DNA of 64,000 nt from Marasmius tenuissimus (lineage: Eukaryota; Basidiomycota; Agaricomycetes; Agaricales; Marasmiaceae), in assembly GCA_029532415.1 (NCBI GenBank), contig JAQOTA010000065.1, positions 1,054,001 to 1,118,000 on the forward strand, written 5' to 3'. Within the stretch, counting starts at the first letter, position 1, and the number at the start of each line of letters is the position of its first letter. A program made the position numbers and the translations under genes. Below, piece after piece: positions 126-43,429 of the stretch. The notes under the pieces are model-generated. The model had not been told where the DNA came from, made no database searches, and saw only the letters and a program-made list of their open reading frames with translations.

Positions 126-1005
126 ATGCCTCTACAAGCGTACTATCGCGATTCGAATGCTGGGGACTTGAGTTTGCCTTTGGACTCTGGACGCCCCGTA
201 TCAGAGGAGAAGCTGCGTGCTCTGGGGTTGAAGTGGTGGTCGGTGGAAGGGTCCCCGGACGAACGATTGAAGAGGTTCAAGGAGCTCTCCAAAAGCCTCG
301 GGTTCGAGGATGGAGATTATGAGCACGTCTATGATCTGAGCAAACAGATTGGGTCGCCGTATGACGCTGCGATGGTGAACGTTTTGGTCTACATCTGGAA
401 TACATCGTTGCTGAAGGTATCAATCCTTTTTCTTCATTCAATTCACCAGACGCCCCAAGACCTATTAAAGGCATGGGCACAGGAGTGCGTTACGCTCATT
501 TTTTATGTTGTTTTTCTGCACGATTGACAAAACCCCTTGCTTTATAGAAGCCTATTTCCACATCCCATTATTGTCTTGTATCTCTGCGGTACTGTGTACA
601 TCGACCTCAAAGGTAAGCACTGTCTTTGTTTTTGCCGTTGTCTTAAATGTGTCTTCTTATCGACCCATTGTTGACCAAGAACCCGGCACCAACTCCTTCA
701 TCAGACTTGTAATCCCGCCAAAGTACGCTATCTCTTACCCGGCCGGCGCACTTTGGCAAGCATCCAGTCGCAAAGACACCCCGCTCGACTTCGCTGCTCG
801 GATCATTTTCAAGGTGAATTGATCGCCCAAACAAGTTTGCGAACCTTGGGATTGTGATTGACCTTCACACGTGCTGTAGGCTACGGACCCTGCCTCCGTT
901 CACCTCATCGGCGATGGATTGGACAAGCACCCCGCCAGGATGGAATATGCGCAAAGCCTTCTCAGCGGCGCTGTGAACTTGGCCCAAATCAAATCTTTCA
1001 AATGA
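126..1005 (+). CDS. ARD-like cupin paralog 1 (metal ligands lost)
   Basis: Exons 126-374, 450-484, 548-612, 680-813 and 880-1005 join in frame to 202 residues. Seen: the N-terminus reads ...AYYRDSNAGDLSLP then GRPVSEEKLRALG and KWW. The middle ends VYIDLKG, followed by FIRLVIPP, YPAGALWQ and, near the C-terminus, DKHPARMEY. Known: acireductone dioxygenases of methionine salvage begin M-R-A-Y-Y, have a P-V-S...L..LG..YW segment, an EHxHxDEE metal motif, FDVRD, P-A-G-x-Y-H (fourth ligand) and a late NPYRxEYL. The landmarks match in order and length. Inferred: the HxH...E segment falls at the exon 2/3 junction, where this protein has AQESLFPHPIIV, and the fourth His site is Trp. It should therefore not bind the catalytic metal. 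I chose the ATG at 126 because it aligns with all paralogs; an upstream in-frame ATG at 99 is not conserved. The gene converges on the peroxidase gene at 1486-2676. Confidence 0.8.
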
Positions 1006-1485
1006 AAACCGGAATATCAATGTACAACAAGTTTGGGTGTTTGAGTCTAATTCGGTAGTACAGAATGAAACCGAACTATTTCTACGATCGTATGCGGCCC
1101 TCGATTCTCTCCTGCTGTCATGTATGAGATCGATCGATGTGAGCTTTCAAAACCTAGAGCCATCGGAGTAAGCGTATATTCTTCGGATCGTGGAAGAACG
1201 GATGGTCAGTGCCCAAACAGATGAGCACACCAGGGCAATCACTGGTTCAAAAACAATTCTTGCGGATGTGTTGAATGTCAGTGTCACAGGGAGGTATGTA
1301 TTGAACGTAGTATCCATTTAAAGAACTGGCGCACAATGTGCATACGGTTCAGTATCTTGCGGTAAGTAGTCCGCATTAGAACAAATATGGTGATCGTGAA
1401 AGGCTCGGGAGGAGAGGCTCAAAAGTCCTTGGAAGTAAAAAGAAAAAAAGGCCGAATTCCAACTCAAAAAAAAGGCAAGTTTGTA
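1006..1485. other. Convergent spacer, duplicated at 9.1-9.6 kb
   Basis: No gene seen. The stretch from about 1,000 to 1,480 resembles 9,115-9,597, for example the shared AAGTTTGGGTGTTTG and AGTACAGAATRAAA blocks. The ARD-like gene and the peroxidase gene were therefore duplicated together as one unit, spacer included. Both 3' untranslated regions must lie here. Confidence 0.7.
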
Positions 1486-2676
1486 TCACTTCCTCGTATA
1501 CCCTGGGAACTTCTCCAACAACTGCGTATTGAACTCCCCCAAAGCTGGGCAATTACGGCCCTTCATCGAAGACCTCAACCGTTCAAGCGCCCCCAACACA
1601 TCTCCACCCAATCCTATCAAGATATCCGGTGTGAGTGCCTGAATAGCAGCCTGCACAATAAAGCACAACAAGTTGTCACCCCGCAACAAGCTCGCCGCAT
1701 TGAGCACACCTCCTGTGAAATCCTCGAGAGACACTCCAGTGAAGGAATCTACCGTTCCTGTGTTACCCCCGACGGACAGGAAGATAGGGTACTCCAGTGC
1801 GGCGGCGAGAAGGTCGACGTTGAAGGGCTCTAACCCGTAGTCATCCCCCACGGAGCGTTTGTACCAGTTGTCTGGAATGCGTTCCCAGCCCTCCTGATAG
1901 ACAAAGTCCGAGGGAGTATCTCCGGAGACGGCGAAGAAAGATTTGAGAGTATGTCGATCGAGAATTCCCTCTGGATGTTCCGCAGACCTGTTCGCCATGA
2001 AGCGTTGTATGAAAAGGGACCCAGCTGCTTGAACGGCTAGGCCACTGAACGCGCCGTTGAAGAAGTTGGGATTGTGATGGATACTCTCGTGAAAACGTTC
2101 GTTGCGGAATTGGTTCAACAAGGGCACGTCGTAGTTAACCTCGGAGTCAGGTTTACCGGCTTGTTTGTTGTATAGGGATTTAAACTGGGTCATGTTGAGA
2201 TGGACGTCGTCCCCTGTCTCGTACAAATCGCCTCTCGTGGTGGAAGCGTCCGTCTCGTATTTGTTGTGGCTCCCGGAGAGGCCCAAAGGATGTCCGAGGA
2301 TGGGACCGATGGGGGGAGGACCGCCGATAGAGAACGTAGTAAGATCGCCGGTCATGAGCGAGCCATATACGGAAAGGAATGTCCCCAAGTCCAAGCCCAT
2401 CCCAAAGACGTCATGGGTAGCTGAGACGAACTCGTCTACAGTCGCGACGCCATTGTGGGGAAGGTAGTTGTGATTGGCGAGAGCGTTGAGACCCGGACAG
2501 GGACCTCGTATGTCTCCATGACCAGGAGGAATGAATTTGTGTTGTCCTCCAACATCGATGCGTTGGGTGTGCGGGTCAAAATCAGGACTGCGACGCATTG
2601 AAGCCGAGGATGAAGACACGACCGTGCATTGGCTGATCACGGTGATGAGAGCTATGAAAAAAGAGTGAGATAACAT
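1486..2676 (-). CDS. Secreted heme-thiolate peroxidase (unspecific peroxygenase-like), copy 1
   Basis: An intronless frame of 396 residues from the ATG at 2676. An in-frame ATG 28 codons upstream is ignored because copy 3 starts at the equivalent position. Seen: a hydrophobic signal sequence (residues about 3-25). Next comes PGHGDIRGPCPGLNALANHN (about 50-70), the Cys-containing PCP motif that ligates heme in this family. KYETDASTTRGD follows at the place of the EHD/EGD motif, then a run containing ERFHESIHHNPNFF. Known: Peroxidase_2 / UPO enzymes use the PCP cysteine as axial thiolate and a distal Glu acid-base, and are secreted oxidants using H2O2 for oxygen transfer or halogenation. Odd: the middle motif is ETD rather than EHD or EGD, and the distal Glu position looks like Gln (AVQAAG). 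Activity may therefore differ. N-X-S/T sequons fit secretion. About 90% similar by eye to the gene at 9598-10785. Confidence 0.85.
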   Translation of the reverse strand: MLSHSFFIALITVISQCTVVSSSSASMRRSPDFDPHTQRIDVGGQHKFIPPGHGDIRGPCPGLNALANHNYLPHNGVATVDEFVSATHDVFGMGLDLGTFLSVYGSLMTGDLTTFSIGGPPPIGPILGHPLGLSGSHNKYETDASTTRGDLYETGDDVHLNMTQFKSLYNKQAGKPDSEVNYDVPLLNQFRNERFHESIHHNPNFFNGAFSGLAVQAAGSLFIQRFMANRSAEHPEGILDRHTLKSFFAVSGDTPSDFVYQEGWERIPDNWYKRSVGDDYGLEPFNVDLLAAALEYPIFLSVGGNTGTVDSFTGVSLEDFTGGVLNAASLLRGDNLLCFIVQAAIQALTPDILIGLGGDVLGALERLRSSMKGRNCPALGEFNTQLLEKFPGYTRK

Positions 2677-3613: not shown

Positions 3614-4778
3614 ATGTTCACTCGCTCTTTCCTCATCGCGCTCCTCACCGTTGCCGTGTCTTCATCCTCCAATTCGACGCGTCGTAGTCCATACGCCGAA
3701 CCCATCGATGTTGGAGGACGACACAAATTCATCCCTCCCGGTCACGGCGACATTAGAGGTCTATGTCCAGGCCTCAACGCACTCGCCAACCATAATTATC
3801 TCCCCCACAACGGCGTAGCAACCGTAGACCAATTTGTCTCCGCTACACACGATGTCTTCGGGATGGGTTTGGACCTAGGCATATTCCTCTCCCTCTTCGG
3901 TTCACTCACTTCAGGCGATATTGCTACATTCTCCATCGGTGGTCCTCCTCCCTCCACTCTCCTACCTCCACTTCTCGGCTATCCGCTAGACCTCTCCGGA
4001 AGCCACAACAAATACGAAACGGACGTCTCCCCCACCCGAGGCAACTTGTACCAAACAGGAGACAACTCGCGTCTCAACCTCACCTAATTCAAAGCTCTAT
4101 ACGACAAACAAGCCGGCTTACCGACTCCCAAGTCAACTTCGACGTGCCCCTCCTTAACCAGTACCGCTACGAACGGTTCCACGAGAGCATACATTCCAAC
4201 CCTTACTTCTTCAGCGGCGCATTCAGCGGCGTAGCTGTCCAACCCGCTGCGTACCTCTTCATTCAACGATTCATGGCGAACAGATCCACAGAGCACGGGC
4301 CGGATGGAATCCTTGACCGTCACATTCTCAAATCCTTCTTCGGCGTCTCCGACGATTTCGTCTACCGTGCGGGATGGGAACGGATCCCAGAGAACTGGTA
4401 CAAACGTGCTGAGGGCGACGATTACGATCTGGTGATATTCGCGCTTGAAGCTACGGCGGTTTCACTCAAGTATCCTATTTTCCTTTCTGTTGGGGGGATA
4501 CGGGGACGGTGGACTCGTTTATGGGAGTTTCGTTGGAGGATTTGACAGGTGGGGTGTTGAATGCGAAGACGTTGGTGGAGGGGGATAATTTGTTGTGTTT
4601 TATGGTGGAGGCGGCTGTTCAGGCTGTTACGCCGGATTTGGTGAAGGGTGTGGTTGGGGATGTGGTGGGAGTGATTCGAAGGTTGAGGTCGGCGGTGGAT
4701 GGACGCGAGTGTCCGTCGTTGAAGGAGTTTGATACGCGCTTGTTGGAGAGGTTTCCGGGGTATGTCGTGTGTAAGTAG
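3614..4778 (+). pseudogene. Broken heme-thiolate peroxidase, copy 2
   Basis: Homologous along its full length to the peroxidases at 1486-2676 and 9598-10785, but on the opposite strand and damaged. It keeps the ATG, a signal-like N-terminus, the heme-Cys motif (LCPGLNALANHN) and the ETD motif. Breaks seen: a TAA stop at 4085-4087 where the intact copies have Gln, a one-base deletion near 4118-4124, and a second frame change near 4497-4501 in a G run. Homology resumes in another frame to the C-terminal FPGY region and a stop at about 4776. Its intact relatives have no introns, so splicing is an unlikely explanation. The copy appears dead, and several independent breaks suggest it has been so for some time. 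Confidence 0.85.
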
Positions 4779-6068: not shown

Positions 6069-6923
6069 ATGTCTCTGCGAGCGTACTATCGCGATCCAAC
6101 CGCTGGGGATTTGAGTTTGCCTTTAGACTCTGGACGCCCCGTCTCAGAGGGGAAGCTTCGTACTCTGGGAATGAAGTGGTGGTCGGTGGAAGGTTCTCCG
6201 GATGAACGCATGAGGACGTTCAAGGAACTTTCCAAGAGCCTCGGGTTTGAGGATGGACATTATGAGCATGTTTTTGACTTGGGCAAACAGACCGGGTCAC
6301 CGTATGACCCTGCTATGGTTCGTGTTTCAGTTTCAACGCGCTCAAAAGATATGGTCGCTGAAGGTATCGTGTGTGTGTTTGTTCCTTTGCCAGGCGTCAA
6401 AAGACTTATTGGAGTCATGGGGACAGGAGTGCGTCACGTTTATTTTTTTTCACTGTGTAATAAACGAACACTTATTGTCTCGGTTATTGGTTTGTAGCAA
6501 CTTATTCCTAGCTCCCACCTTTATCTTGTATCTCTGTGGTAATGTGTACATTGACTTCAAAGGTATCGGCGTTTGCCCTTGTCTCGACTCTCGTATATGT
6601 TCATTGACCTGTTATTGACAAAAGAACCCGGCACCGATTCATTCATTAGGCTTGTGATTCCACCAAAGTACGCTATTTCTTACCCGGGCGGTGCACTCTG
6701 GCAAGCGTCCAGCTGTAAAGACACCCCGCACGACTTTGCAGTCCATATACTTTTCAGGGTGAGTCACTCATCCGAACTTCACGAAATCTGCCACTAAGCT
6801 CCATATGTACCGTAGGCTATGGACCCCGCCTCCGTTCAACTCATCGGCGAGGGTTTGGACAAGCACCCCGCAAGGATGGAATATGTGCGAAGCGTTCTCG
6901 GCGACGCTGTGAACTTGGCCTAA
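6069..6923 (+). CDS. ARD-like cupin paralog 2
   Basis: Exons 6069-6317, 6394-6428, 6498-6562, 6625-6758 and 6816-6923 give 196 residues with intron phases 0, 2, 1, 0, identical to paralog 1. Exon 3 encodes NLFLAPTFILYLCGNVYIDF, where an active ARD would have its two His and Glu ligands; none is present. The fourth ligand region is YPGGALWQASS. Intron 1 uses a GTTCGT donor, shared by most copies. The upstream block at 5965-6068 supports this ATG over the longer in-frame start at 5790. Nothing is broken. Confidence 0.8.
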
Positions 6924-7588: not shown

Positions 7589-9107
7589 ATGTCTCTACAA
7601 GTGTACTATCGCGATCCAAATGCTGGGGACTTGAGATTGCCTCAAGACTCTGGACGCCCCGTCTCAGAGGAGAAGCTCCGTGCTCTGGGATTGAAGTGGT
7701 GGTTGGTGGAAGGGTCTCTGGATGAACGTATGAAGACGTTCAAAGAGCTTTCCAAGAGCCTTGGATTCGAGGACGGAGACTATGAGCACTTATTCGATCT
7801 GAGCAAACAGACTGGGTCGCCGTACGACCCTGCTATGGTTCGTATTTCAGTTCAGGTTTGAAAAAAATTATCACTGAAGGTATCGTGTGTGTGTTTGCTC
7901 CTTCCGCCAGCCGCCAAAAGACGTATTGGAGTCGTGGGGACAGGAGTGTGTCGTGTTCTTCGTTCTCTGCATAATTGACAGAAATGCTTACTGCCACCTC
8001 GTCCATTGCTCAACAGCAACCTATGCCCACCTCCCACCTTTGCCTTGTATTTCGGTGGCAACGTTTACGGTGACATTAAAGGTATCGACTTTTGCTGTCG
8101 CCCTGGATGATTTGTTTTAAATGGCCTGTTGACAAAGAACCCGGTACCGAGTCCTTCATTAGGCTTGCGATCCCGCCGAAGTATGCTATCTTTTTCCCGG
8201 GCGGTACAGTCTGGCAAGCATTCAGTACCAACGACTTGTCGGAGCTTTCAGTACACGTGCTTTACAGGGTGAGCCAATCATCCAAAGATCACGAATCCTG
8301 GCACTGATCCTGACATGTAGAGTACGGACCGCGCCTCCGTCAACCTCGTCGGCGACGAATAGGCCTGTAACCGACCTGACTGTGACGATGGCAAGCATGT
8401 ACAGTCAGGCCTGTAAAACGGAAGTTTCCGGTCGCAGAAAGTTTTTACGATCGAGCGGTGTCGCGGTCCGCCCATCCGCTTCCCTTTATGGACACCTTGC
8501 CAAATACGGCGATTCTTCCTGAATCCCCCCGTATGAAGCAGAACTGGTACCAAGGGCACTCAAGGCTAGTTAGTGCTATTGCTTATGACGGCTCTGCTCG
8601 TATAAAGCCTTTCGAAGTAGTAATCAGCCCGAGAGGACTCGAATTCCAGCCAAACCGCTCAATGAGCAAGGCTGCCAGCCAACCTGCCTTATCGGGAAGG
8701 CAATGACGTATCTCAGGCAGCGTTTGAGGGCTTGCAGAGGTTTGCGAACCTCTGAGTGCACTACACACTCAGATTTCTGGTATATAGTATATGCGAAGAC
8801 ACATGTTATCTTTAGGCAGCATTTGGAGCTCAGGTTTGTGGGACAAGAGGCAATAATCAGAGTGAAAAGGAAGAATCGCCCAATTTGGCAAGGTGTCCAT
8901 AAAGGGAAGCGGATGGGCGGACCGCGACACCGCTCGATCGTAAAAACTTTCTGCGACCGGGATCTTCCGTTTTACAGGTCCCTACATACATGCTTGCCAT
9001 CGTCAGGTAGGGATACTGCTTCAGGTCTAGGCGACGAACTGGACAAGCACCCCGCCAGGGTGGACAACGTGCGAAGCGTTCTCGGTTCTGACGCCGTAGA
9101 GGCCTGA
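7589..9107 (+). pseudogene. ARD-like cupin paralog 3, last exon split by a transposon
   Basis: Exons 7589-7837, 7911-7945, 8017-8081, 8138-8268 and 8321-8359 are intact. Inside exon 5, after GGCGACGAA, a 670-base inverted-repeat element begins (8360). Its first bases create a TAG stop at 8360-8362. The displaced 3' part of exon 5 resumes at 9030 after a copy of the same nine bases and runs to the normal stop at 9105-9107 (DKHPARVDNVRSVL region). The truncated reading frame would give 173 residues, lacking about the last 25. The core cupin strands would remain, so a shortened product is possible. Ligand-region sequence is NLCPPPTFALYFGGNVYGDI and FPGGTVWQAFS. Confidence 0.85.
8360..9029. mobile_element. 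Mutator-like TIR element, copy 1 (non-autonomous)
   Basis: A 670-base element with long inverted arms (about 8,360-8,520 and 8,869-9,029), starting TAGGCCTGTAACC and ending CAGGTCTA. It is flanked by a perfect nine-base target duplication GGCGACGAA (8351-8359 and 9030-9038). No coding capacity for a transposase is visible in the roughly 350-base interior. Nine-base duplications with arms over 100 bases are typical of Mutator-like elements; that superfamily label is inferred. A second copy in opposite orientation lies at 21,965-22,802. Confidence 0.9.
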
Positions 9108-9597: not shown

Positions 9598-10785
9598 TCA
9601 CTTCCTCGTATACCCTGGGAACTTCTCCAATAACTGCGTGTTGAACTCCTCCAAAGGTGGGCAATTACGGCCCTCCAACGGAGTCCTCAACCGTCGAAGC
9701 GCCCCCACCACATCCCCAACCACTCCCTTCAAGATGTCCGGCGTGACTGCCTGAGCGGCAGCCTCCACAATAAAGCACAACAAGTTGTCACCTTCCAATA
9801 AGGTCTCCGCGTTGAGCACGCCTCCCGTGAAATCCTCGAGAGACACTCCAGTGAAGGAATCTACCGTTCCTGTGTTACCCCCGACGGACAGGAAGATCGG
9901 GTACTCCAGTGCGGCGGCGAGAGCGTCAGCCGTGTAGGGCACTATACCATAATCATCCCCCACAGAGCGTTTGTACCAGTTGTCTGGAATGCGTTCCCAG
10001 CCCTCCTGATAGACGAAATCCGAGGGAGTATCTCCGGAGACGGCGAAGAAAGACTTGAGAATATGTCGATCGAGGATTCCCTCTGGATGTTCTGCGGACC
10101 TGTTCGCCATGAAGCGTTGTATGAAAAGGAACCCAGCTGGTTGAACAGCTACGCCACTGAACGCGCCGTTGAAGAAGTTGGGATTATGATGGATACTCTC
10201 GTGAAAACGTTCGTTGCGGAATTGGTTCAGCAAGGGCACGTCGTAGTTGACCTCGGAGTCAGGTTTACCGGCTTGTTTGTCGTATAGGGATTTAAACTGT
10301 GTCATGTTGAGATGGACGTCGTCCCCTGTCTCGTACAAATCGCCTCTCGTGGTTGAAACGTCCGTCTCGTATTTGTTGTGGCTACCGGAGAGGCCTAAAG
10401 GATGCCCGAGGATAGGACCGATGGGGGGAGGACCGCCGATAGAGAACGTAGCAAGATCGCCGGTCATGAGTGAGCCATAGATAGAAAGGAATGTACCCAA
10501 GTCTAAGCCCATGCCAAAGACGTCGTGGGTAGCTGAGATGAACTCGTCTACAGTGGCGATGCCGTTGTGGGGAAGGTAATTGTGATTGGCGAGGGCATTG
10601 AGACCTGGACAGGGACCTCGTAGGTCTCCATGGCCAGGAGGAACGAATTCGTGTTGTCCTCCAACATCGATGCGTTGGGTGTGCGGGTCAAAATCAGGAC
10701 TGCGGCGCGTTGAACTCGAGGATGAAGACGCGGCCGTGCATTGGCAGACGGCGATGAGAGCTATGAGGAAAGAGTGAGAAAACAT
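9598..10785 (-). CDS. Secreted heme-thiolate peroxidase (unspecific peroxygenase-like), copy 3
   Basis: An intact intronless frame of 395 residues. Signal sequence is about residues 1-20, then a Ser-rich stretch, the heme-Cys motif GPCPGLNALANHN, ETDVSTTRGD, and AVQPAG at the distal acid-base position. It differs from copy 1 mainly by scattered substitutions in the C-terminal 130 residues (for example EAAAQAVTPDIL). It is convergent with ARD-like gene 3, reproducing the arrangement of gene 1 plus copy 1. The two ARD/peroxidase units are therefore a segmental duplication of about 3 kb. Family assignment is secure from the Cys motif and overall layout; substrate is unknown. Confidence 0.85.
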   Translation of the reverse strand: MFSHSFLIALIAVCQCTAASSSSSSTRRSPDFDPHTQRIDVGGQHEFVPPGHGDLRGPCPGLNALANHNYLPHNGIATVDEFISATHDVFGMGLDLGTFLSIYGSLMTGDLATFSIGGPPPIGPILGHPLGLSGSHNKYETDVSTTRGDLYETGDDVHLNMTQFKSLYDKQAGKPDSEVNYDVPLLNQFRNERFHESIHHNPNFFNGAFSGVAVQPAGFLFIQRFMANRSAEHPEGILDRHILKSFFAVSGDTPSDFVYQEGWERIPDNWYKRSVGDDYGIVPYTADALAAALEYPIFLSVGGNTGTVDSFTGVSLEDFTGGVLNAETLLEGDNLLCFIVEAAAQAVTPDILKGVVGDVVGALRRLRTPLEGRNCPPLEEFNTQLLEKFPGYTRK

Positions 10786-12439: not shown

Positions 12440-13279
12440 ATGTCTCTACGAGCATACTATCGCGATCCAATCGTTGGAGGCTTGACTTTGCCGCTAGACT
12501 CTGGGCGCCCCGTTTCAGAACAGAGACTTCGGGCTCTGGGATTGAAGTGGTGGTTGTTAGAAGGATCTCCAGATCAACGTATGAAAACATTCAATGAGCT
12601 TACCAAGAGCCTTGGGTTTGTGGACGGAGACCATGAGCACGTCTTCGATCTGAGCAAACAGACCGGGTTCCCGCATGATCCTACTATGGTTCGCGTTCAA
12701 TCTTGTTTGGCGGTATATTCAGATCGCTCAAGGCTTCGTTTCTTGTATTCCGCTAGGAGCCAAAAGCCGCGTTGGAATCGTGGGGGCAGGAGTGCGTATC
12801 AATTTGTGTTTTTGCTCTCAACAGAAATCTTACTGACCCGACCCGACCATTTCCCATTAGTATGCTGCTACCCTTTCCCAACTTCACTATGTATGTCGAG
12901 GGTAACATGTACGTCGATATCAAAGGTATCTACTTTTGCCCTTTTCTTGAACAAACAAAGTCTAAAGGTTAGTTTACCTGTTAACACAGAACCTGGCACC
13001 GACTCCTTCATCCGGCTCGTGGTTCCCCCAGAGTTCGCTATTTTCTACCCAGGCGGTACGATCGCCCAAGCTTCGAGTCATCAAGATACCCTACTGGGCA
13101 TCACAGCCCATTCACTATTCAGGGTGAGCCAATTCTTCGGAAACCTCACGAGGCTCGCCACTGACATGAATACTTAGGGCACGGACCCTGCCTCCTTCTT
13201 CGTCTTTGGTAAGGAAGTAGACAAACACCCCGCGAGAGTAGATTATGTGCGAAGTGTTCTCGACGGCGCGGAGGCCTAG
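12440..13279 (+). CDS. ARD-like cupin paralog 4
   Basis: Exons 12440-12688, 12757-12791, 12861-12925, 12990-13123 and 13178-13279 give 194 residues. Exon 1 is more diverged than in neighbours (DPIVGGLTLPLDSGRP, WWLLEGSPDQRMKTF). The ligand region reads MLLPFPNFTMYVEGNMYVDI and the fourth-ligand site YPGGTIAQASS. All splice sites are GT-AG and all phases match the family. The longer upstream in-frame start at 12302 is not supported, because it lies in the conserved upstream block. Confidence 0.8.
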
Positions 13280-15113: not shown

Positions 15114-15937
15114 ATGTCTCTACGTGCGTATTATCGCGATCCAACTGCCGGGGACTTGAGTTTACCCCAGGATTCTGGACGCCCTGTTTCAGAGCAGAAG
15201 CTTCGCGCTCTGGGATGTAAGTGGTGGTTGGTAGAAGGATCTCTGGATCAACGTATGGAAAAATTCAAGGAACTTTCCAAAAGCCTTGGGTTCGAGGATG
15301 GAGATTATGAACACTTCTACGATCTGAGCAAACAGACCGGGACGCCGCATGATCTAGCTATGGTTCGTGTTTCGGTTCAAAATCAAAAGGCATCGTCGCT
15401 AAAGGTGATGTTGTACCTTGTTCTCCACCAGATGCCAAAAGACGTAGCACAGATGTGGGGCCAGAAGTGCGTCGCATTCACTTGTCTCTGCACAACCAAA
15501 GATCTCATTGCCCCTGCCGTTACTCAATAGCAATCTACTTTCATTCAACGTTCTTGTCTTGTATGTCGCTGGTAAAGCGTATCTCGATCTCAAGGGTATT
15601 GACTTTTCGCCTTTTTTTGCGTGATTGTTTGGCTGACCCGTTGGGAAAGAACCCGGCACCGATGCCTTCATCAGGCTTGTAATCCCGCCGAAGTATGCTC
15701 TTTTCTGCCCGGGTGGTACGGTCTTCTAGGCGTCCGGTCATGAAGACGCTCTACTGGACGTCGCAGTCCATGTATTATTCAGGGTGAGCTGATCATTCAA
15801 GGAACCTGAATCTCATTATTGAGGCTGGTGTGTAGGCCACGGACCCCGCTTCTGTCGTCACTTTCGGCGAGGAAGTAGATAAACACCCCACTAGAGTGGA
15901 CTATGTGCAAAGTGTTACCGGCGGCACAGAGGCCTAA
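15114..15937 (+). pseudogene. ARD-like cupin paralog 5, nonsense codon in exon 4
   Basis: Exons 15114-15362, 15432-15466, 15531-15595, 15650-about 15783 and 15836-15937 are all recognisable with the family phases. In exon 4, at 15727-15729, TAG stands where every other copy has the conserved Gln after the P-x-G turn (CPGGTVF then stop). Exon 2 also ends AA instead of GA before its donor. The rest, including the final ATDPASVVTFGEE region, is otherwise undamaged. This suggests recent inactivation. A truncated protein of about 143 residues, lacking the last cupin strands, is the alternative. Confidence 0.8.
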
Positions 15938-17938
15938 CCGAAGCTTCCCTCCCCAACTGAAACCGGAAGTATAATATGTACATATAGGCCTTCGGTACGG
16001 GTTTGATAGTACAGAATAAAGCGAACTGTTCCTCACCTGTCTGTCGGTATTTCGAATGAAGAGTTCTGGAACGTATGCAGCTTTCAAGCGCAGTGAAGTC
16101 GGCACTTAAGCCATTATTTTGACACTGAGGTTTTGACTATATAAAGGTGCTTTTTCAGTCAATTCCGGGAACGTCAGACGATGGAATCCGGAATCTGAAA
16201 GGGAAGGCCAGAGTTGGAGAAAGTTGGCGCCGGAGTGGGCGCTTCTCGCTCCTTGTTTTCGTACAACCGCCATCAAACCGGCGTCCAAACCAGCTCTTCA
16301 ACCATAGCGACTCAGTACTGGTAGAAGCCTCAGTATGAGATCAAGGACATCTCTTCACAGCTACTTCTCAAGATTCAGAACGGACAAGGCTTTATCAAAT
16401 CTCAGCTCAGCCAACTATCTCCAGTTCACTTCGATTCTCGACACGCACAAGGTTGTCGACGCTACCGGCACCCCTGTAACTGACCATGGGTGCCTACTAC
16501 CGTGACAAGTTCAACGATGCCAGCTACCTAGCCGCTATTCAATATCGTGATCGGCCCGTCCCTGATAACAATGGTCACAGGGAGCTCGCTCTCGAGCTAA
16601 ACGGTGAGCACGCGATTGTTGACTAGTTTTTCTCACTAACACGTCCAACAAGCTTTTCACCCGCTAGTCATGAGGCCGTAAGCTTGAGGAGCTTGAGGGC
16701 TTATACTAGTACACTTCATCGGCCCCTTGGTTACGACGAAACGCGTATAAAAAGACCTCAAATCCATGTTGAACATTCTCATATCCTCGCCCACTTTCCG
16801 ACCGATTAGTACGTGTGCCCATTATTGCGACAACAACGCGAGTGACTTATCCATCCGTCATGACTCCAACCGACCTGTCCCTGATGGGAGACTTCGCGTT
16901 TTGAATCATCGGATGTCTGGACTCTCAACGGCACCAACACAACATCAGGCCATGCTCAGCGACCTGTCCCAGAGTTTAAACTCCGTCTCTGGATAGTCTC
17001 GGGACTTCCTGTACGACTCCAAGTAGGCAGAGGGTGGGGCTCCGCGAATGGATGGTGTTATTTGTGCTCGGTGCTCCATTGTCAACGTTCTAGGCTCGCC
17101 TAACGACATTTTTTGCAGTCGGCTGAGCAGCGAATGGCTTATTTTGCGGGGGAGTCAGTACGATAACCCCGATTGTACCGAGAACGACCTTCTCACAGCT
17201 CCTTACCCCAGCGTCGTGATTGCCGTCGAGACTTCACTTATCGTGCTATTTGCGCTCGTCCTCTGGCTCCCTCTCACTCTGTGGGATTTCTTTATGCAAC
17301 GTTCCCAGTCTTCTCTGGCTTCCGCATTATCGCAGACTAATCCAAGAAATCGCCACCATGCTGTGTGACGGTACAACCCCCAAAAAAGCTCCCACCGTGT
17401 GCTTCTGTACCTCTGTATGTTTGGAACGTAATTCTCTTTTTGCGTTACATTCACCGCGTCATGACCACTACTCAGGGAAGCAACTGGAATGCCGCACAAT
17501 CCTCCAATGGCACATGCCATCAGAGTCTTTGGTGGCTCGTTCAACTGACCTTGATGCGTTATTCATGTTCTCCAGGAGCCTCAAACATCCTCGTTGGCAG
17601 TTCAAATACAGGGGTGAGTACTTCCTTTCAACCTTGTGATTATTTGCCGAGCTCACAGCTGCAACGGCCCATAGCATGCTCCTATCACACCAATTCAAAA
17701 TGCACTTCCGTTTATGTTATACCAGTACGGAATCCAGACCCAACATACGTTCCCGGTTCTCAGACTCTTTTCGAGGGTAAGCCTGTTCGGGTCCTCATCA
17801 TGCGACGTGTTCACCCCACAACATATGAACGAGATTTTTTGGTCCAGTGGGGATTCAACGCCCTTCCAAACTGTGGCGAGAGCTCATATTAATAGATCAA
17901 AGAACCTGCTCTTATGCTCTCGCATTCCCATCCTTGTC
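15938..17938. other. Spacer with repeat blocks, TATA-like site and relic
   Basis: About 16,040-16,290 repeats the 4.9 and 13.4 kb spacers and contains TATATAAAGG at about 16,138. The relic at 16,486-17,640 follows. The last 95 bases are the upstream block of gene 6. No intact gene is seen. Confidence 0.55.
16486..17640 (+). pseudogene. Best-preserved ARD-like relic with membrane segment
   Basis: Two successive ARD exon-1-like segments are visible. The first is MGAYYRDKFNDASYLAA...RDRPVPDNNG (16,486-16,603, followed by a GTGAGC donor). The second reads AHYCDNNASDLSIRHDSNRP (about 16,806-16,996) and ends in a stop. Both match the AYYRD...DLSLPHDSGRPVP start of the intact genes. A segment with a strong hydrophobic run (VIAVETSLIVLFALVLWLPL, about 17,215-17,275) lies downstream and is shared in damaged form with 14.5 kb. 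Whether the two parts ever formed one membrane-anchored protein is unknown; no complete model could be built. Confidence 0.5.
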
Positions 17939-18761
17939 ATGTCTTTACGAGCATATTATCGCACTCCAACAGCTGGAGACTTAGGTTTACCCAACGACTC
18001 TGGACGCCCCGTCTCGGAGGAGAAGCTTCGTGCTCTGGGATGTAAATGGTGGTCGGTAGAGGGGTCTCCAGATCAACGTATGAAGACATTCAGAGAACTT
18101 TCCAAATCCCTTGGATTCGAAGATGGAGGTAACGAGCACCTCTTCGATCTGAGCAAGGAGACTGCCGGGTCGCCGCATGATCTTACTTTGGTTCGTGTTT
18201 GATTTGCATTTCAGATACCCCGTTGCTCAACGTCTCATACCATGCTCTGGAATCAGGCGCCAAAAGCTGTAATGGAGTCATGGGGGAAAGAGTGCGTTGC
18301 GTTCACCGTCTTGCTGTATTTCCGAGAGAAATCTGACTGCCTCAACAGCGTCCTAGTCCCCGACCCCATCTTCGTCTTGTATAGGACTGGTAATATCTAC
18401 ATTGATCTCAAAGGTATCAGTTTTTGCCTTTATGATTATTTTGGATGATCACAGATCGGTTGACCTGTTGACGAAGAACCAGACACCGATTCCTACATCA
18501 GACTTGTAATTCCGCCACAGTATGCTATTTTCTACCCGGGCGGCACCATCGTCCAAGCGTCCAGTCATGACAACTCGCTGGACCTCTCAGCCCACATACT
18601 CTTTAGGGTAAGTTGATTGTTTCAGTTTTCACCAGAATTAGTACTTACCTTTACACGAGGGTACGGACCTCGCTTCCGTTCTTGTTTTCGGTGAGGAGGT
18701 GGACAAGCACCCCGCTAGGGTAGATTATTTTCGAAGCGTCCGTAGCGATGTAGAGGCCTGA
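17939..18761 (+). CDS. ARD-like cupin paralog 6
   Basis: Exons 17939-18190, 18257-18291, 18349-18413, 18477-18607 and 18660-18761 give 194 residues. Exon 1 has one extra codon (SKETAGSPHD), shared with paralogs 7 and 11. Ligand region: VLVPDPIFVLYRTGNIYIDL; fourth site: YPGGTIVQASS. The C-terminus EEVDKHPARVDYFRSV aligns with the late NPYRxEYL element of true ARDs. No damage seen. Confidence 0.8.
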
Positions 18762-19113: not shown

Positions 19114-19948
19114 ATGTCTCTACGAGCGTACTATCGCAATCCAACAGCTGGGGACTTGAGTTTGCCTTTAGACTCTGGACGCCCCGTCTCGGAGGAGAAG
19201 CTTCGTGCTCTGGGATGTAAGTGGTGGTCGGTAGAGGGGTCTTTAGATCAGCGTATGAAGACGTTCAGGGAGCTCTCGAGGACCCTTGGGTTTAAAGACG
19301 GAGACACCGAGCACTTCTTTGATCTGAGCAAGGAGACCGCCGGGTCGCCGCATGATCTTGCTATGGTCTGTGTTCGAACTTGCTTCGTGGATGCGCCAGT
19401 ATTTGCTCAAGGCCTTGTATATTGTTCGGTAACCAGGCGCCAAAAGCTATATTGGAGTCATGGGGGAAAGAGTGCGTCGCATTCATCTCGTCTACTGTAT
19501 TCCCAACAGAAACCTTACTATTGTCGCAATAGCCTCCTTATCCCCGACCCCATCATTGTCTTGTATGTCGCTAGTAACATGTACATTGATCTCAAAGGTA
19601 CTGACTTCAATCTTTTTCTCGGGTGGTACAAGTTAGATTGACCTGTTGATTACTTAGAGCCCAGCACCGACTCTTTCATTCGGCTTGTAGTCCCGCCAAA
19701 GTATGCAATTTTTTACCCAGGTGGTACGGTGTTCCAAGCATCCAGTCACGACGACGACTTGCTAGGTCTTCAAGTCCATGTGCTTTACAAGGTGCGCTTG
19801 TCCGAATGATCATCAACCTCAAATCTAACCTCTCACTCACATGTAGGGCACGGACCCCGCCAATGTTTTCGTCTTTGGCGAGGAAGTGGACAAGCACCCC
19901 GCCAGGGTGGACTATGTTCAACATGTCTGTAGCGACGCCGAAGCCTGA
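19114..19948 (+). CDS. ARD-like cupin paralog 7
   Basis: Exons 19114-19365, 19437-19471, 19533-19597, 19658-19791 and 19847-19948 give 195 residues. Intron 1 uses a GTCTGT donor. Ligand region: LLIPDPIIVLYVASNMYIDL; fourth site: YPGGTVFQASS. Closest to paralog 6 in exons 1-3 and lying next to it, so the pair is probably a recent tandem duplicate. Confidence 0.8.
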
Positions 19949-20582: not shown

Positions 20583-21444
20583 ATGATCTCTTTCAAGATC
20601 TACAAGCCAACAATACGTGTATACTATCGAGACATCTCGACGTGCGATCTATCGCTACCCCATGACACTGGCCGCCCGGTCTCGGAGGAGAGGCTTCGAG
20701 CTATTGGAATCAAATTTTGGAAGTTCACGAGTTCTGGCGAAGAAGGCAACGCGAAGTTTAGAACACTTGGAGAAGAACTGGGATTTGGAGCGAAAGGCTC
20801 AAGTCAGAGATATTTTGGGGGGTTCGATCAAGTACAAGTTGGGGATATACTGAAGGTCAGTCACCGGCCCAAGATCTCTCTCTTCTGTGTCATTATGATT
20901 ACTGTGTATTTCGATTCTATAGGATGTAAAGCCGGCAATCGGATTTTTCTCTCAAGAGTGCGTTTCGCGCTGCTTTCACGTCACCTTATATGCCCAACCG
21001 TTACGAGCAGTGTTCTGGCCCTTGTGGATGCGCTTTTCCTCGTTAAGAAAGGGGACTGTTATTTTGACTTCAAAGGTCCCAATTCTGGTCTCCCTGAAGC
21101 GCTGAAGCCACTCTCAAACTTCATCCTCTGTAGATCCAGAGACGAATTACTATATTCGCGTACTTGTGGGCCCAGGAGAAATCTACTTTATTCCTCAGGG
21201 AACCATCATGCAAGCCTATCCGATAGCAAACTTGGACACCGACACCGAACATAACATATCTATCGATGAATTATACAAGGTGCTGTCCAGTAGTGTCCGC
21301 GCTCAGCGGTAGGCAAACCAGGCTCACGCAACGGTACAATAGACTACGGAACCTTTGGAAAAGCAGCCGTCACTCGTTCATGGTCGGGATCTTCGCAGCG
21401 AACCTATCCGTATCGCCTACGTTGCGAATATAGGGGCCGTGTAG
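20583..21444 (+). CDS. ARD-like cupin paralog 8 (second subfamily)
   Basis: Exons 20583-20855, 20923-20957, 21011-21075, 21134-21279 and 21343-21444 give 206 residues. The N-terminus has a short extension before RVYYRDISTCDLSLPHDTGR. Exon 2-3 junction reads GFFSQ-D-VLALVDALFLVKKGDCYFDF. The FF-x-Q and YFDF residues align with the FFEEH and FFDVR flanks of the fungal ARD metal motif, giving a confident register with His-to-Asp, His-to-Leu and Glu-to-Asp changes (inferred). The fourth ligand is IPQGTIMQAY (His site Met). The C-terminus EPIRIAYVANIG matches ARD's NPYRVEYLKSI. Intron positions equal those of the first subfamily. Confidence 0.8.
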
Positions 21445-23071: not shown

Positions 23072-23861
23072 ATGCGTGCCTACTACCGAGACTCGTCGAC
23101 ATCCGATCTATCTTTGCCTCATGATACCGGACGACCAGTTTCGTCGGAGAACCTTCACGCGCTTGGGCTCAAGCTCTGGAAGTTGACAGGATCTGACGAC
23201 AATCCTGAGGAAAAGTTCAGGGCAATTGCAGAGGAAATGGGGTTTATCGAAGGCTCTAGACAGAGATCCCTCCAGGACTTTGCGAAAATTGAGCCAAAGG
23301 TGAGCCAGATCTCCTCCGGGATCATCCCATCGAAGTTCTAAAGGACATTCGTGTCAAGGCTGCCGAATCAGAGGTCAAGTTTTTTGCCCAAGAGTTAGTG
23401 CCATGGCGATTCCGCCTTACTGGATCTCCCGATGAACCATGTCAATAGCATCCTACTTCTCACGGATGTACTCTCCTTCATCAAGAAAGGCAACGTTTAC
23501 TACGATATCAAAGGTTCCCCGATTCGTACCTACCCAGTATTTGCTCTCATGGTTCCCTCCGTACTCTAGATGCACAAACAAATGACTATATCCGCATCCT
23601 CATAGGTTCGGGGGAGGTCTACTTCAGCCCACAAGGTTCCATCATACAAGTCTATCCAGTCGCGGACGTGGAATTGGGCACCTTCTGTGTTGATGAGCTA
23701 TACAAGGTGATTATCAGCGTGCATACATTGTGAAGGCTAGAGGACTTACGGCCTTACAGACCTCGGAGCCGCTCGACAAACAACCACCCTTCCTCCAAGG
23801 ACAAGACCTTCGTAGCAATCCTCTTCGAATTGCTTACCTTACAAGCATTGGGGTCGCATGA
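23072..23861 (+). CDS. ARD-like cupin paralog 9 (second subfamily)
   Basis: Exons 23072-23299, 23359-23393, 23449-23513, 23570-23706 and 23760-23861 give 188 residues, close to the length of true fungal ARDs. The start MRAYYRDSSTSDLSLPHDTG and LKLWKLTG segments are the most ARD-like in the window. Metal region: KFFAQ-D-ILLLTDVLSFIKKGNVYYDI; fourth site: SPQGSIIQVYP. All ligands are absent. The very short exon 1-5 structure is fully in frame. Confidence 0.8.
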
Positions 23862-24475: not shown

Positions 24476-25266
24476 ATGCGTGCATACTACCGAGACTCAT
24501 CAGCATGCGATCTATCTTTACCTCATGATTCTGGCCGCCCAGTGCCGGAGGAGAAGCTTCGTGCTCTTGGGCTCAAGTTCTGGAAACTGACAGGATCCGA
24601 CGACGATCTCGAGGAGAAATTTGGAGCGATTGGAGAGGAAATGGGGTTCATTGAAGGCTCTAGACAGAGATCTCTTCAGGACTTTGCGAAAATTGAACCA
24701 AAGGTTCGCCATAAATCTCCTCCAGGCCAATCACATCATTCTGACGATCATTCACCTCAAGACTGTGGAAGAGGAAGTCAAGTTTTTTGCCCAAGAGTCA
24801 GTATCTACTCGTCTCCATGGATCTCTCGATGAATTTAGGAGTCAACAGCGTCCTAGCTCTCGTGGATGTGCTCCCGTTTATCAAGAAAGGCAACATCTAT
24901 TATGATATCAAAGGTTCTCCGGTTCATGTCCACCCTAGCTCCGTTTTCATGATTCCCTTTGCATTGTCTTAGATGCGCAAACAAACGACTATATCCGCAT
25001 TCTCGCAGGTCCCGAGGAAGTCTACTTTATCCCACAGGGATCCATCGTGCAAGCTTATCCACTCGTGGACGGGGGTTTAAGCCGCTTTTGTGTCGATGAA
25101 CTATACAAGGTGACTATCAGTGACTTTCCTCATCGTGGAGGCAGCCAGACTTACGGTCTGATAGACTTCAGAGCCGCTCGACGAGCAACCACCCTTCGTT
25201 CAAGGGCAAGATCTTCGTAGCAATCCTCTTCGGATTGCTTATCTTACGAGCATCGGCGCCGCATGA
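24476..25266 (+). CDS. ARD-like cupin paralog 10 (second subfamily)
   Basis: Exons 24476-24703, 24762-24796, 24849-24913, 24973-25109 and 25165-25266 give 188 residues. Near-identical in exon 1 and exon 5 to paralog 9 (SRQRSLQDFAKIEPK and DLRSNPLRIAYLTSIG are shared). Metal region: KFFAQ-D-VLALVDVLPFIKKGNIYYDI; fourth site: IPQGSIVQAYP. Changes between the two copies are substitutions without frame damage, which fits two maintained proteins. Confidence 0.8.
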
Positions 25267-26080: not shown

Positions 26081-26910
26081 ATGTCTCTACGCGCATACTA
26101 TCGCAATCCAACCGCTGGGGACTTGAGTTTACCCCAGGACTCTGGACGCCCTGTTTCAGAGAAGAAGCTTCGCGCTCTGGGATGTAAGTGGTGGTTGGTA
26201 GAAGGATCTCTTGATCAACGTATGGAAAAATTCAAGGAACTTTCCAAAAGCCTTGGGTTCGAGGATGGGGACCGTGAGCACTTCTTCGATCTAAGTAACG
26301 AAGCCGCCGGGACGCCGGGAAATCTTGCTCTGGTTCGTGCTCAATCTGCGTTGAAGTATATTATTGTCAAGGTTTCACTCATTGTTCGTAATCAGGCGCC
26401 AAAAGCTATATTGGAGTCGTGGAAACAGGAGTGCGTTATGCTCACTGACTTTACCGAATTCCTGATACTGACAGAAAGCCTATTGCTTTGGTTATTGCTC
26501 AACAGCACCCTAATTCCCTGTCCCGCCTTTGCCTTGTACTACACTGGTGATGCGTATGTTGATCTAAAAGGTTTTTACCTTCAAATCCTGGATGGTTCTT
26601 TGTTTAACCTAGTAACAAAGACCCCGACACCAATTCCTTCATTCGGATCGCAGTTCCGCCGGAGTACGCCATCTTCTACCCAAGCGGTACGATCTTTCAA
26701 GCATCCAGCCATGAAGCCAATCTGCTAGACATCTCATTCTTTGTACTCTTCAAGGTGAGCTTGTCGTCTAGAGTATCACGATCTTTGGTGTTAACCTTGA
26801 TGTAGTCTAAGGACTCCGCGTCCGTTTTCACACCCGGGGAGGAGCTAGACCAGCACCCAGCTAGGGTAGACTATGTGCAACGCGTCCTCTACGGTGACTT
26901 GAAGATCTGA
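26081..26910 (+). CDS. ARD-like cupin paralog 11
   Basis: Exons 26081-26332, 26396-26430, 26506-26570, 26621-26754 and 26806-26910 give 196 residues. Exon 1 is nearly that of paralog 5 (KKLRALGCKWWLVEGSLDQR). Ligand region: TLIPCPAFALYYTGDAYVDL; fourth site: YPSGTIFQASS. Its upstream flank and its downstream neighbour (a truncated nucleoside permease) are shared with paralog 12. The two are therefore units of one duplication. Confidence 0.8.
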
Positions 26911-29555: not shown

Positions 29556-29564
29556 CACCCCCTC
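29556..29564 (-). other. Polypurine tract of the Copia element
   Basis: GAGGGGGTG on the minus strand immediately inside the 3' LTR, the expected place for plus-strand DNA priming. Confidence 0.7.
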
Positions 29565-29597
29565 GCTAAGTGCAGCTGACAAGCGCATCTGAGCGAA

Positions 29598-35006: not shown

Positions 35007-35291
35007 GGTAGTAAGAGGTTAGGTTGTTTGGTGTTGGATCTAGAAAAGACAGCATCAGCATGCGTCTAATCAACACAGGGAGCAGCCATTAAGGCGCTAT
35101 GCTCAACGAGGAGCATTTGATCCTTTAGATCCGATGTCGTCGAAGGACATACATCAATGCCATAGATCGAGTACTCAATAAAGAGGTCGATGGCAACATG
35201 CAGGTCTAGCCTAGCTAGCCGATGACAGCAGCCTAGGGGCGCTCATCGCTGACAGCAGCCATTAAGGCGCTCGTCATTGTAGTCGGGCTAA

Positions 35292-35306
35292 CCGGGGCCC
35301 ATAACC
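35292..35306 (-). other. Primer-binding site candidate (initiator Met half-tRNA)
   Basis: On the minus strand the base directly after the 5' LTR begins GGTTATGGGCCCC. Its complement, CCCATAACC followed by TGATG in the LTR edge, resembles the anticodon stem-loop of eukaryotic initiator Met tRNA (GGGCTCATAACCCTGATG). Internal, half-tRNA priming is known for Drosophila copia and yeast Ty5. The match is imperfect, so the tRNA assignment is inference. Confidence 0.55.
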
Positions 35307-35618
35307 TGATGAGCCGGCATGACGCCTAGCGCAGAGGACTACAACATGGTTACACTACTACTTACCAGAGAGGAGTTTAGAGAGATAGAGGCGAGACGTA
35401 GAAGCTCAAGCACACTGTAGATTCATGTAGAGAACTACGAGCTTATATATATGTAGAGTCAATAGTAAATACCATATAAGGATGACAATAGAAATTGTAC
35501 ATATGATCATAAGTAGAAATGATAAAATGGAACAATAGTCCCGCATAATATGATGGCGGGAAGTATGAACCAGGACTTCGGATATACCGGGATCTAATAA
35601 TAGTCCACGGATTCAACA
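35307..35618 (-). repeat. 5' LTR of the Copia element
   Basis: 312-base partner of 29,244-29,555. It would carry the promoter. A TTATATATATG stretch lies near its middle, but I cannot fix a start site. Confidence 0.93.
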
Positions 35619-36505
35619 GACTGTGGTAACTGTTAAATACACATTAAATCCAAATCACGACCCGCCATCGTTGTGACAGACACCCAACAACCTGCTTAGC
35701 ACACAATGGCTCGGGTCCAGGCCCATTCAAACAGGTACTTATCTTCCTTGAATCACTAAGTCCATTCTTCCATATTCAACGGTTGCTCACCTGAGTCGCC
35801 TCTTAAACTAGACAATTGGAGACTCGCCTGGGACCCTAAATAATTCCCTTCCCCCCAACATCAACTCAGGAAGCAGGCCCTTCCTTTGCTCCTCAAGAGC
35901 TGCAGGGTAAGTAAATCCACCCGCCCTCAGTGTCGTCAAATCCTCACATCAATTCTAAGGTCCCCGAGTTCCTGCCGTGTTTTAGGAGGTTCAGTATATA
36001 TTATATCGCACCTTTTATGCTGGTCCAGCTTCATAAATAGTCCTGCTACATGTAATATTGTCCGAATACTAGATCCAGTGAACAATCAAAATGACGGAAG
36101 GACGTTGAGTCGGAGACGTGATAGACGCGATTCCATACCCAATCTGGCAGATTGGAGATTGTTGATCCTGCAGTGTTGTATGGTATTCCCGAGGAATCTA
36201 ATTGGTCAAATCTCCCTTGAACCCTGTCAAACCCTCGGTAAAGAGGCTACTATACAGCACTATATGGTCCTGTATAGGTACTATAAAGTTTCCTGTTAAC
36301 TATTTCACTATTTTACTAACCGTTACTCTCAAGGACTATATAGTAAACATCCAATTTCCAGATGCTGTTCATGAGCGCTCATATACAGCCTGGATGTTCA
36401 CAAACGCTCACATTCATTTCACTTGCTCATATACCATTCCAAACACTGTAAACACTCATGAGCAATCATAAACTGTGGACATATTTTCTGGTGCTTACTC
36501 CTGAC

Positions 36506-39500: not shown

Positions 39501-40234
39501 GGTCTGGAGGAGAGATCAAGGTCCTGAAGTGGAGATTATGTGGCGGAGGTTGTGAGGTTGTGAGGACGTGAGGTTGTGAGGATGTGAGGACGTGAGGATG
39601 TGAGGTTGTGAGGATGTGAGGTTGTGAGGTTGTGTGGAGGTGAGCAGAATCAGTACCCTGATTGAGGTAGAGAGCAAGCTATAATATCGACAAGCAGTTC
39701 AAATAACCTCATCTTGGAGGTAAGCATTCCAGCTGCCAGATGAGCTGTTGGCGGAGGTGAAGTGAGCAACGGTGGACATTGCCAGCATTCTCCACACATC
39801 AGGGGCAAACCTCCCAAATAAACCAAGGTTGAAGGTTGTGATTTCCAATATTTCTGCGTTAATTCAATGTTGTGCGCATGAATTTCCATGATATTAGTTT
39901 CCAGCGCTGAGAAAACCCGAAGAACGGGGAGCTGTAGCACATGCACCAGAATCCCAAGCAAGCGCCTCTCATACCCTCCGAGAACTGAACAAGGCAGCTA
40001 ACAGCCGATCCTTGGTTCATATATGGTAGGAGCGGGGTTTTCGTAAGAATTATTGAGCCTCCAGGAAACTGATGGGGCGGTATTTCAGGGTCTGAGGCCT
40101 TGGTAGCACTTGAATACCCATGCGCGTGGAAAGGAAACCCTGAGAAAAGGTTCGGGAGTGTTTTGGAGAATGTTCCGGGGTGGTTTGATGGAAGGGACAC
40201 ATTATTGACTGCAACAACGACGGCGGTGAGGTGG
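36506..40234. other. Transposon-island remainder without recognisable genes
   Basis: 3.7 kb of AT-leaning, stop-rich sequence. Short frames exist on both strands but none has a recognisable domain. Best read as decayed transposon or pseudogene DNA. The only clear structure is the minisatellite at 39,546-39,649. Confidence 0.5.
39546..39649 (+). repeat. Eight-base minisatellite GAGG(TT/AC/AT)GT
   Basis: About thirteen head-to-tail units of GAGGNNGT, where NN is TT, AC or AT (GAGGTTGT, GAGGACGT, GAGGATGT). Variation is confined almost wholly to positions 5-6 of the unit. Confidence 0.85.
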
Positions 40235-42251: not shown

Positions 42252-42574
42252 GTTCGTTGCTCATCACTGTGACGATCGATAGTAGCGTCCTCCTGCCTTG
42301 CGATGCCTCCTGGGACTATTTCAGCACCAAAAATGATGTATACCTCCATTTCTGGACTCTTTCGAACGTCAGCCTTTCGAAGACGTTCGGCCTTATTGTG
42401 TTCAATCAGTATCAATCATCCTAAAACGTACGAGCTACTTAGTATATTTTTCGGTTCAGCGAGGATTCAACGGACCATCGAACCGCCGTAAAATATGGTA
42501 TCATTGGACCGCCACAAAAGCTAATACTTAAAGATCATCGGAGAACCTTCTAGTGCTCTATTTCCCCTCCCATC

Positions 42575-43429
42575 ATGTCTCTACGAGCGTACTATCGCAA
42601 TTCGAACGCTAAAGACTTAAGCTTACCCCACGACTCTGGACGCCCTGTTCCAGAGCAGAAGCTTCGTGCTCTGGGATGTAAGTGGTGGTCAGTGGAAGGG
42701 TCTCCAGATCAGCGTACGAAGGTATTCGAGGAACTTTCCAGAAATCTGGGGTTTGAGGAGGGAGACTGTGAGCATTCCTTTGATCTGAGCAAACAGACCG
42801 GGTCTCCACATGACCCTACTATGGTTCGTGTTCAATGTACCGTGTTGAAAATAAATCGTATGCTCAACGGCTCGTACTTGTTCGCTAACTAGGCACCGAA
42901 AGCCGTATTGGAGTCGTGGGGAAAGGAGTGCGTCGCGTTTACCTGTTATTCTCTTGCATTCTCAACATGAAACTTACTGCCTTGGCCATTCCTCAATAGC
43001 ACCCTTCTTTCCGTCCCCATCTTCGTCTTATATGTCGCTGGGATCATGTACGTTGATCTCAAAGGTATTGACTTTTGCCTTGATCTCGAAGAAAAGTTCG
43101 GTTGACCTGTTGACACAGAACCCGGGACGAATTCCTTTATTCGGCTTGTGATTCCGCCAAAGTATGCTGTCTTCTACCCAAGTGGGACGATCTTCCAGGG
43201 ATCCAGTCATCAAGACAACTTGTTGAGCATCGCAACCCGCGTGCTTCACAAGGTGAGCCCAACTGAGCTCGTCCGAGGAATCACAAACCTCACCAACCCT
43301 GGCATTCAGGGCACGGACCCAGCCTCCGTTTTTGCCTTCGGCGAGGAGATAGACAAACACCCCGCTAGAGTGGGCTACGTGCAAAGCGTCCTCGACGACT
43401 TGAAAGGTCCGATCGAGCCATATCAATGA
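42575..43429 (+). CDS. ARD-like cupin paralog 12
   Basis: Exons 42575-42823, 42893-42927, 43000-43064, 43119-43252 and 43310-43429 give 200 residues. The C-terminus is six to eight residues longer than most copies (DDLKGPIEPYQ). Ligand region: TLLSVPIFVLYVAGIMYVDL; fourth site: YPSGTIFQGSS. It is followed in convergent orientation by the intact nucleoside permease. Despite transposon insertion about 325 bases upstream, the coding region is undamaged. Confidence 0.8.

Follow-up and report, generated by a model that had tools for sequence, protein, structure and literature searches.

Cupin barrels do not always need a metal, and the sugar 3,4-ketoisomerases, RmlC and the seed storage globulins are cupins that work without one. 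Inactive copies of an enzyme can also be kept beside the active one, as in the prozyme of trypanosome S-adenosylmethionine (AdoMet) decarboxylase. For acireductone dioxygenase (ARD; also ADI1 or MtnD, PF03079), a cupin with four metal ligands, roles that are possibly metal-independent have been reported in animals but are hard to separate from its chemistry, according to a review (PMC8315008). The review states that mutating all four ligands of human ADI1 (MTCBP-1) leaves its pro-apoptotic and colony-reducing effect in place, and plant ARD1 is reported to bind a G-protein beta subunit (PMC3718340). Here we describe a tandem array of twelve ARD-like genes (g1-g12) without the metal site in the fungus Marasmius tenuissimus. 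The genes lie in a window of 64,000 nucleotides, the whole stretch of DNA analysed (C31:1054001-1118000, contig JAQOTA010000065.1), from an assembly of 71 Mb in 70 contigs. The predicted fold of their family is that of human ADI1, and a likeness to the metal-free cupins named above would lie in the cupin barrel. ADI1 is also a working enzyme, and no family of dead copies is mentioned for it in the accessible part of PMC8315008. The array resembles the prozyme system in keeping presumably inactive copies beside an active enzyme, but the enzyme is a different one and any partner would be putative.

All twelve genes are on the plus strand and together span positions 126-43429 of the window. Each model, spliced from the window sequence, has five exons with intron phases 0,2,1,0, so that the arrangement described in an initial annotation of this DNA is reproduced throughout. 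Exon 2 measures 35 nt and exon 3 measures 65 nt in 12/12 genes; the introns are 50-76 nt long and have GT-AG boundaries at 48/48. Nine genes form group A (g1-g7, g11, g12) and three form group B (g8-g10). Ten copies are open from start to stop, the number given by the initial annotation; the exceptions are g5, in which a TAG falls in frame in exon 4, and g3, which is broken by a 670-bp insertion in exon 5. Half of the models are identical to NCBI predictions (g1 to P0009, g3 to P0013, g6 to P0003, g8 to P0017, g9 to P0015 and g10 to P0014), and no identical NCBI entry was found for g2, g4, g5, g7, g11 and g12 among the entries listed. By eye, two further predictions are variants: P0010 is g11 minus the modelled exon 3, and P0012 is g5 with an additional intron across the stop. 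The window was read by eye except for 32001-36499.

The genome also encodes a canonical ARD, for which the initial annotation had proposed a search. This gene, on contig C25, has all ligands in its spliced model (HLHEDEE and PPGIYH). Like the array genes, it has intron phases 0,2,1,0, a 35-nt exon 2 and a 65-nt exon 3. An exon-by-exon genome search with PF03079 at E 0.001, a kind of search that can miss loci, listed the C25 locus alone. The array proteins share with ARDs the N-terminal arm AYY..D...P.D.GRPV and the C-terminal P.R..Y. Searched against PDB sequences, g10 has four distinct matches up to E 1, all of them ARDs (best E 2.4e-10). Structure predictions for g10 and g6 give the ARD cupin fold across the whole chain, which bears out the fold named in the initial annotation. 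Chance resemblance is excluded by the gene structure held in common (intron phases, exon lengths), by the fold match and by the similarity of g10 to the solved ARDs. As a homology test, Pfam proved too weak: none of the five proteins scanned reaches the curated cut-off of 27 bits for PF03079 (g8 23.2 and g10 18.4; no match up to E 1 for g2, g7 and g12), so introns, the PDB sequence search and structure decide. The protein database assigns PF03079 to g9 (P0015) and its relatives P0016 and P0019.

The family differs from ARD in lacking the metal site. We aligned 37 rows (31 family, 6 catalytic; Coprinopsis numbering). The ligand table excludes P0003, P0009, P0010, P0012-P0015 and P0017, which are identical to or variants of window genes, and P0020 and P0035-P0038, which are partial or unspliced; its rows P0001, P0005 and P0008 come from another M. 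tenuissimus entry and are nearly the same as g7, g5 and g2, respectively. In the ligand columns, 6/6 catalytic rows have H,H,E,H. The first His, second His or Glu is kept in 0/31 family rows and the fourth His in 1/31. Both conserved arginines (in EIR and IRLF; R92 and R144), which we take to be active-site residues of ARD, are present in 6/6 catalytic rows and 0/31 family rows (one gap). Without g3, g5, the C10 copy, P0018 and P0034, 26 family rows remain. At thirteen columns the catalytic rows do not vary and no letter reaches half of these 26; six of the thirteen are the four ligands and the two arginines (H84, H86, E90, R92, H130, R144). Thirteen columns are common to catalytic and family rows (A3, Y4, P16, D18, V23, L28, D102, I112, R113, P125, G127, R167, Y170), and near-invariant letters peculiar to the family include R6, K104 and Q131. 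The one family row with the fourth His is a dispersed copy on contig C10 (L024, C10:2335500-2338500), which reads PAGAYHH there and has lost the other ligands. It may be an intermediate in ligand loss; the tree puts it next to the ARDs, but long branches make this placement unsure.

The initial annotation held that the three-ligand segment is replaced in every copy, and this is the case in 12/12. It also listed W, M, I, V, F, A and Leu at the fourth His site: the first six occur, and Leu is found in none of the twelve. A splice or frame error concealing the ligands was rejected, as a scan of all three plus frames across the twelve gene spans found no H.H...[ED] and the catalytic control gene was positive; an alternative splice model, raised in the initial annotation, thus restores no ligands. 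The only two P.G..H matches in the scan, g9 at 23313 and g10 at 24719, both fall within the modelled intron 1. By its defining chemistry the family is not ARD, since the ligands are absent; by descent and predicted fold it is, and we therefore consider it a pseudoenzyme family. We have almost no doubt about descent from ARD and loss of the metal site.

The copies bear marks of constraint. The median pairwise dN/dS (omega) is 0.24 in group A (36 pairs) and 0.15 in group B (3 pairs), and maximum-likelihood estimates are 0.365 and 0.229, respectively. Free log likelihoods of -3630.4 (A) and -1649.2 (B) compare with best values of -3703.0 and -1691.5 at omega=1 across the kappa values tried, and omega=1 is rejected for both groups. 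By exon, group A omega is 0.27 (exon 1), 0.69 (exons 2+3), 0.29 (exon 4) and 0.22 (exon 5). Exons 1, 4 and 5 differ from 1 (p 7e-10 or less), whereas for exons 2+3 the difference from 0.28 is significant (p 2e-6) and that from 1 is not (p 0.064). In group A, the segment that once carried three ligands is thus much freer than the rest. A drift simulation from g7 and g10, run without indels and assuming independent copies and drift since duplication, leaves 3.2% of copies intact at 0.1 changes per site and 0.07% at 0.25; the observed number is 10/12. The values between copies are well below 1 in both groups, and the view of the initial annotation that a noncatalytic array is maintained is supported by them (0.37 and 0.23), by the rejection of omega=1 and by counterparts in Marasmius sp. 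AFHP31. Maintenance of the family by selection is very probable.

Three overlapping protein searches listed 13, 21 and 43 proteins; they need common 5-letter words and may therefore miss distant relatives. Family members among the listed proteins come only from Marasmius (M. tenuissimus, sp. AFHP31, M. crinis-equi, M. oreades and M. fiardii), plus P0037 from an ENA contig, by eye an unspliced group-A-like gene. Among 24 listed matches not named Marasmius, H.H...[ED] is present in 20; the other four are P0037 and P0032, P0033 and P0053, three sequences of 107-135 residues that by eye end or enter an intron before the motif. In the protein searches made, the family thus appears restricted to Marasmius.

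In a tree of 35 rows (P0018 and P0034 left out), the six ARDs, group A and group B each occupy one side of a branch, with supports of 100/99, 99/98 and 96/91; these splits count only rows of the three named groups. P0025 (M. crinis-equi) and P0024 (M. oreades) join the group A side outside the M. tenuissimus genes (99/98), which dates the origin of the group A lineage to before M. tenuissimus separated from either species. P0019 (M. crinis-equi) joins group B (94/91), so this lineage predates the split from M. crinis-equi. AFHP31 counterparts are well supported on the tree for g1, g3, g9 and g12 and less so for g2 (95/79) and g7 (87/70). With that of g8, recognized by identity in exons 1-4, they total 7/12, all predicted proteins; none was found for g4, g5, g6, g10 and g11 among the proteins listed. 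The two listed M. oreades members have locus tags 38 apart and lie on equally long contigs. In the M. tenuissimus genome, dispersed copies on C23 and C10 both have phases 0,2,1,0. Two further genome searches added no copies, but they are a weak test, since the C10 copy and the fragment upstream of the window escaped them as well.

We propose, with a probability of roughly 0.5, that the array belongs to a Marasmius-restricted pseudoenzyme family that arose from a duplicated ARD gene, is maintained, has a metal-free barrel and acts by binding. An ARD gene was duplicated together with its introns. The metal and substrate residues, whose loss is seen in the alignment, would have disappeared before the sampled Marasmius species split. 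A hydrophobic core, visible at two positions, would have replaced the empty metal site, and the barrel would fold without metal. The copies multiplied in tandem, and the omega estimates show that purifying selection keeps them, acting on exon 1 (the N-terminal arm), on exon 4 and on the C-terminal end; exons 2-3 of group A, the former carriers of three ligands, are much freer to vary. The proteins, which would be metal-free and stable, may be cytosolic, as their N-termini, judged by eye alone, have no obvious signal peptide. Their action would consist in binding, and the likeliest target is a protein partner, contacted through the outer parts that are under constraint. A protein partner is our first choice because constraint in group A falls on the arm and outer exons and not on exons 2-3, and because human ADI1 with four mutated ligands keeps its reported effect; even so, a cytosolic protein-binding role is tentative. 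More speculative is the fuller picture in which Marasmius has divorced the binding function of ARD from catalysis: the enzyme remains a separate gene, and the multiplied metal-free copies would all be binding proteins that share a fixed outer surface and differ in the barrel, every copy having a partner or ligand of its own.

Several points weigh against this proposal. Former ligand sites are hydrophobic in 25 (His2), 25 (His4), 20 (Glu) and 15 (His1) of the 26 rows against an all-column background of 38%, but the excess is partly expected in any barrel interior, where buried columns would exceed 38%. The relaxation of exons 2-3 is not clearly repeated in the three genes of group B, and per-segment pairwise counts are noisy, with few synonymous changes in exon 5 of g1/g2 and g2/g3. 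Over seven pairs, M. tenuissimus and AFHP31 are 89% identical in exon 1, 81% in exons 2-3, 87% in exon 4 and 77% in exon 5 (the last including truncated or differently predicted ends), and the contrast of exons 2-3 with exon 1 (81% vs 89%) is modest. Omega between paralogues can reflect past constraint, and some copies decay, as the two broken genes (g3 and g5) and the relics show. The review itself says that the human ADI1 effects have yet to be confirmed as metal-independent (PMC8315008). The plant case offers no metal-free precedent, since AGB1 is reported to stimulate the enzymatic activity of ARD1 (PMC3718340).

Alternatively, the proteins could be small-molecule carriers whose metal-emptied barrel holds a hydrophobic ligand that differs by copy, since exons 2-3 vary. 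This doubtful reading would account for the often hydrophobic former ligand positions and for exons 2-3 being the most variable among group A copies. Yet bulky Trp or Phe stands at the fourth ligand position in 16/31 family rows, which suggests filling over a cavity, and omega in exons 2-3, at 0.69 below 1 but not significantly so, gives no sign of diversifying selection.

The copies might instead be regulators, either of the surviving catalytic ARD or of its pathway, in the manner of the prozyme that partners trypanosome AdoMet decarboxylase. The catalytic ARD does persist in the genome, and the structure of an enzyme with its dead paralogue is published (PMC5201418). At least twelve regulators for one enzyme nevertheless seem excessive, which makes this unlikely. 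Furthermore, ARDs are mostly monomers, and a hetero-oligomer is then not obvious. New metal-free catalysis in the cupin barrel would have a parallel in the sugar 3,4-ketoisomerases, but we give it a low chance.

Equally improbable is a role in storage or defence, in which the mushroom would make the protein in abundance and the copies would have expanded for dose. In the eight group A genes other than g1, the 110 bases before the start are 63% identical, compared with 45% in the preceding 90 bases and 46% downstream (g3 also dropped); this fits a duplicated proximal promoter, and seed storage globulins, which are cupins, occur among the group B matches. The introns of these genes, however, are nearly as alike (57-61%; exons 65-80%) as the proximal promoter, and the globulin matches can reflect the common cupin fold. 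A decaying, functionless pseudogene family, which the broken g3 and g5, the relic and the 3' fragment would suggest, is already largely refuted by the rejection of omega=1 in both groups, by 10/12 intact copies being very unlikely in the drift simulation and by the seven AFHP31 counterparts as predicted proteins.

Table 1. Array genes and associated features in the window. Ligand letters follow the order of the catalytic columns H,H,E,H (His1, His2, Glu, His4).
Feature	Group	Position	Strand	Exons	Ligand columns	Remarks
g1	A	126..1005	+	126-374, 450-484, 548-612, 680-813, 880-1005	S,F,I,W	
g2	A	6069..6923	+	6069-6317, 6394-6428, 6498-6562, 6625-6758, 6816-6923	N,F,T,W	
g3	A	7589..8362	+	7589-7837, 7911-7945, 8017-8081, 8138-8268, 8321-8362	N,C,T,W	truncated in exon 5
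g4	A	12440..13279	+	12440-12688, 12757-12791, 12861-12925, 12990-13123, 13178-13279	M,L,N,A	
g5	A	15114..15937	+	15114-15362, 15432-15466, 15531-15595, 15650-15783, 15836-15937	N,L,V,F	in-frame TAG in exon 4
g6	A	17939..18761	+	17939-18190, 18257-18291, 18349-18413, 18477-18607, 18660-18761	V,V,I,V	structure modelled
g7	A	19114..19948	+	19114-19365, 19437-19471, 19533-19597, 19658-19791, 19847-19948	L,I,I,F	
g8	B	20583..21444	+	20583-20855, 20923-20957, 21011-21075, 21134-21279, 21343-21444	V,A,A,M	
g9	B	23072..23861	+	23072-23299, 23359-23393, 23449-23513, 23570-23706, 23760-23861	I,L,V,I	
g10	B	24476..25266	+	24476-24703, 24762-24796, 24849-24913, 24973-25109, 25165-25266	V,A,V,V	structure modelled
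g11	A	26081..26910	+	26081-26332, 26396-26430, 26506-26570, 26621-26754, 26806-26910	T,I,A,F	
g12	A	42575..43429	+	42575-42823, 42893-42927, 43000-43064, 43119-43252, 43310-43429	T,L,I,F	
Insertion of 670 bp in g3 exon 5		8360..9029	.			inverted-repeat arms 93.5% alike; 9-bp flanking duplication at 8351-8359 and 9030-9038
Degenerate family relic		16811..17044 (C31:1070811-1071044)	+			in-frame stops; matches E 5e-4 and 0.008

Pieces related to the element in g3 lie near g8 (21965-22111 and 22651-22802). Besides the degenerate relic, exon-1-like degenerate pieces occur at 14054-14171 and 16496-16613 (one repeat pair, judged by eye), and a 3' fragment of the family lies directly upstream of the window; not every copy has thus been kept.

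A Copia-type retroelement (29244-35606) lies in the region between g11 and g12. It has a 1749-aa open frame on the minus strand and 300-base end stretches that are 99% alike, and is probably a recent insertion. The left end of the array is interspersed with unspecific peroxygenase-like genes of Peroxidase family 2 (1486-2760, minus; 3614-4410, plus, with an internal stop; 9598-10785, minus), and further ones lie upstream (C31:1049010-1049684, minus; C31:1051336-1052025, plus). These five have the genome's top five scores for the family. The peroxidase genes appear to have been duplicated together with the array, judging from a repeat spacing of ~8.1 kb (1484/9596, 2721/10826, 3233/11334). A minisatellite at 39530-39657 has an 8-base unit, about GAGGNNGT, and eleven overlapping 48-base copies. 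The right part of the window carries ordinary genes, including by Pfam a nucleoside permease (43761-44759) and an eIF2D-like gene (60038-61021); the others were recognized by eye.

We found no paper on an ARD-like pseudoenzyme family in the literature on ARD, on cupin pseudoenzymes and on the genome of this species, a search that left subscription journals mostly uncovered. Many family proteins are misnamed 1,2-dihydroxy-3-keto-5-methylthiopentene dioxygenase in public databases, and those aligned here are without any catalytic ligand. A natural family in which the fold persists without the metal site would set the possibly metal-independent roles of ARD apart from its chemistry in a directly testable way. 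The barrel of a metal enzyme looks rebuilt as a hydrophobic core, and the shape of the enzyme seems to have been kept for a job other than its chemistry.

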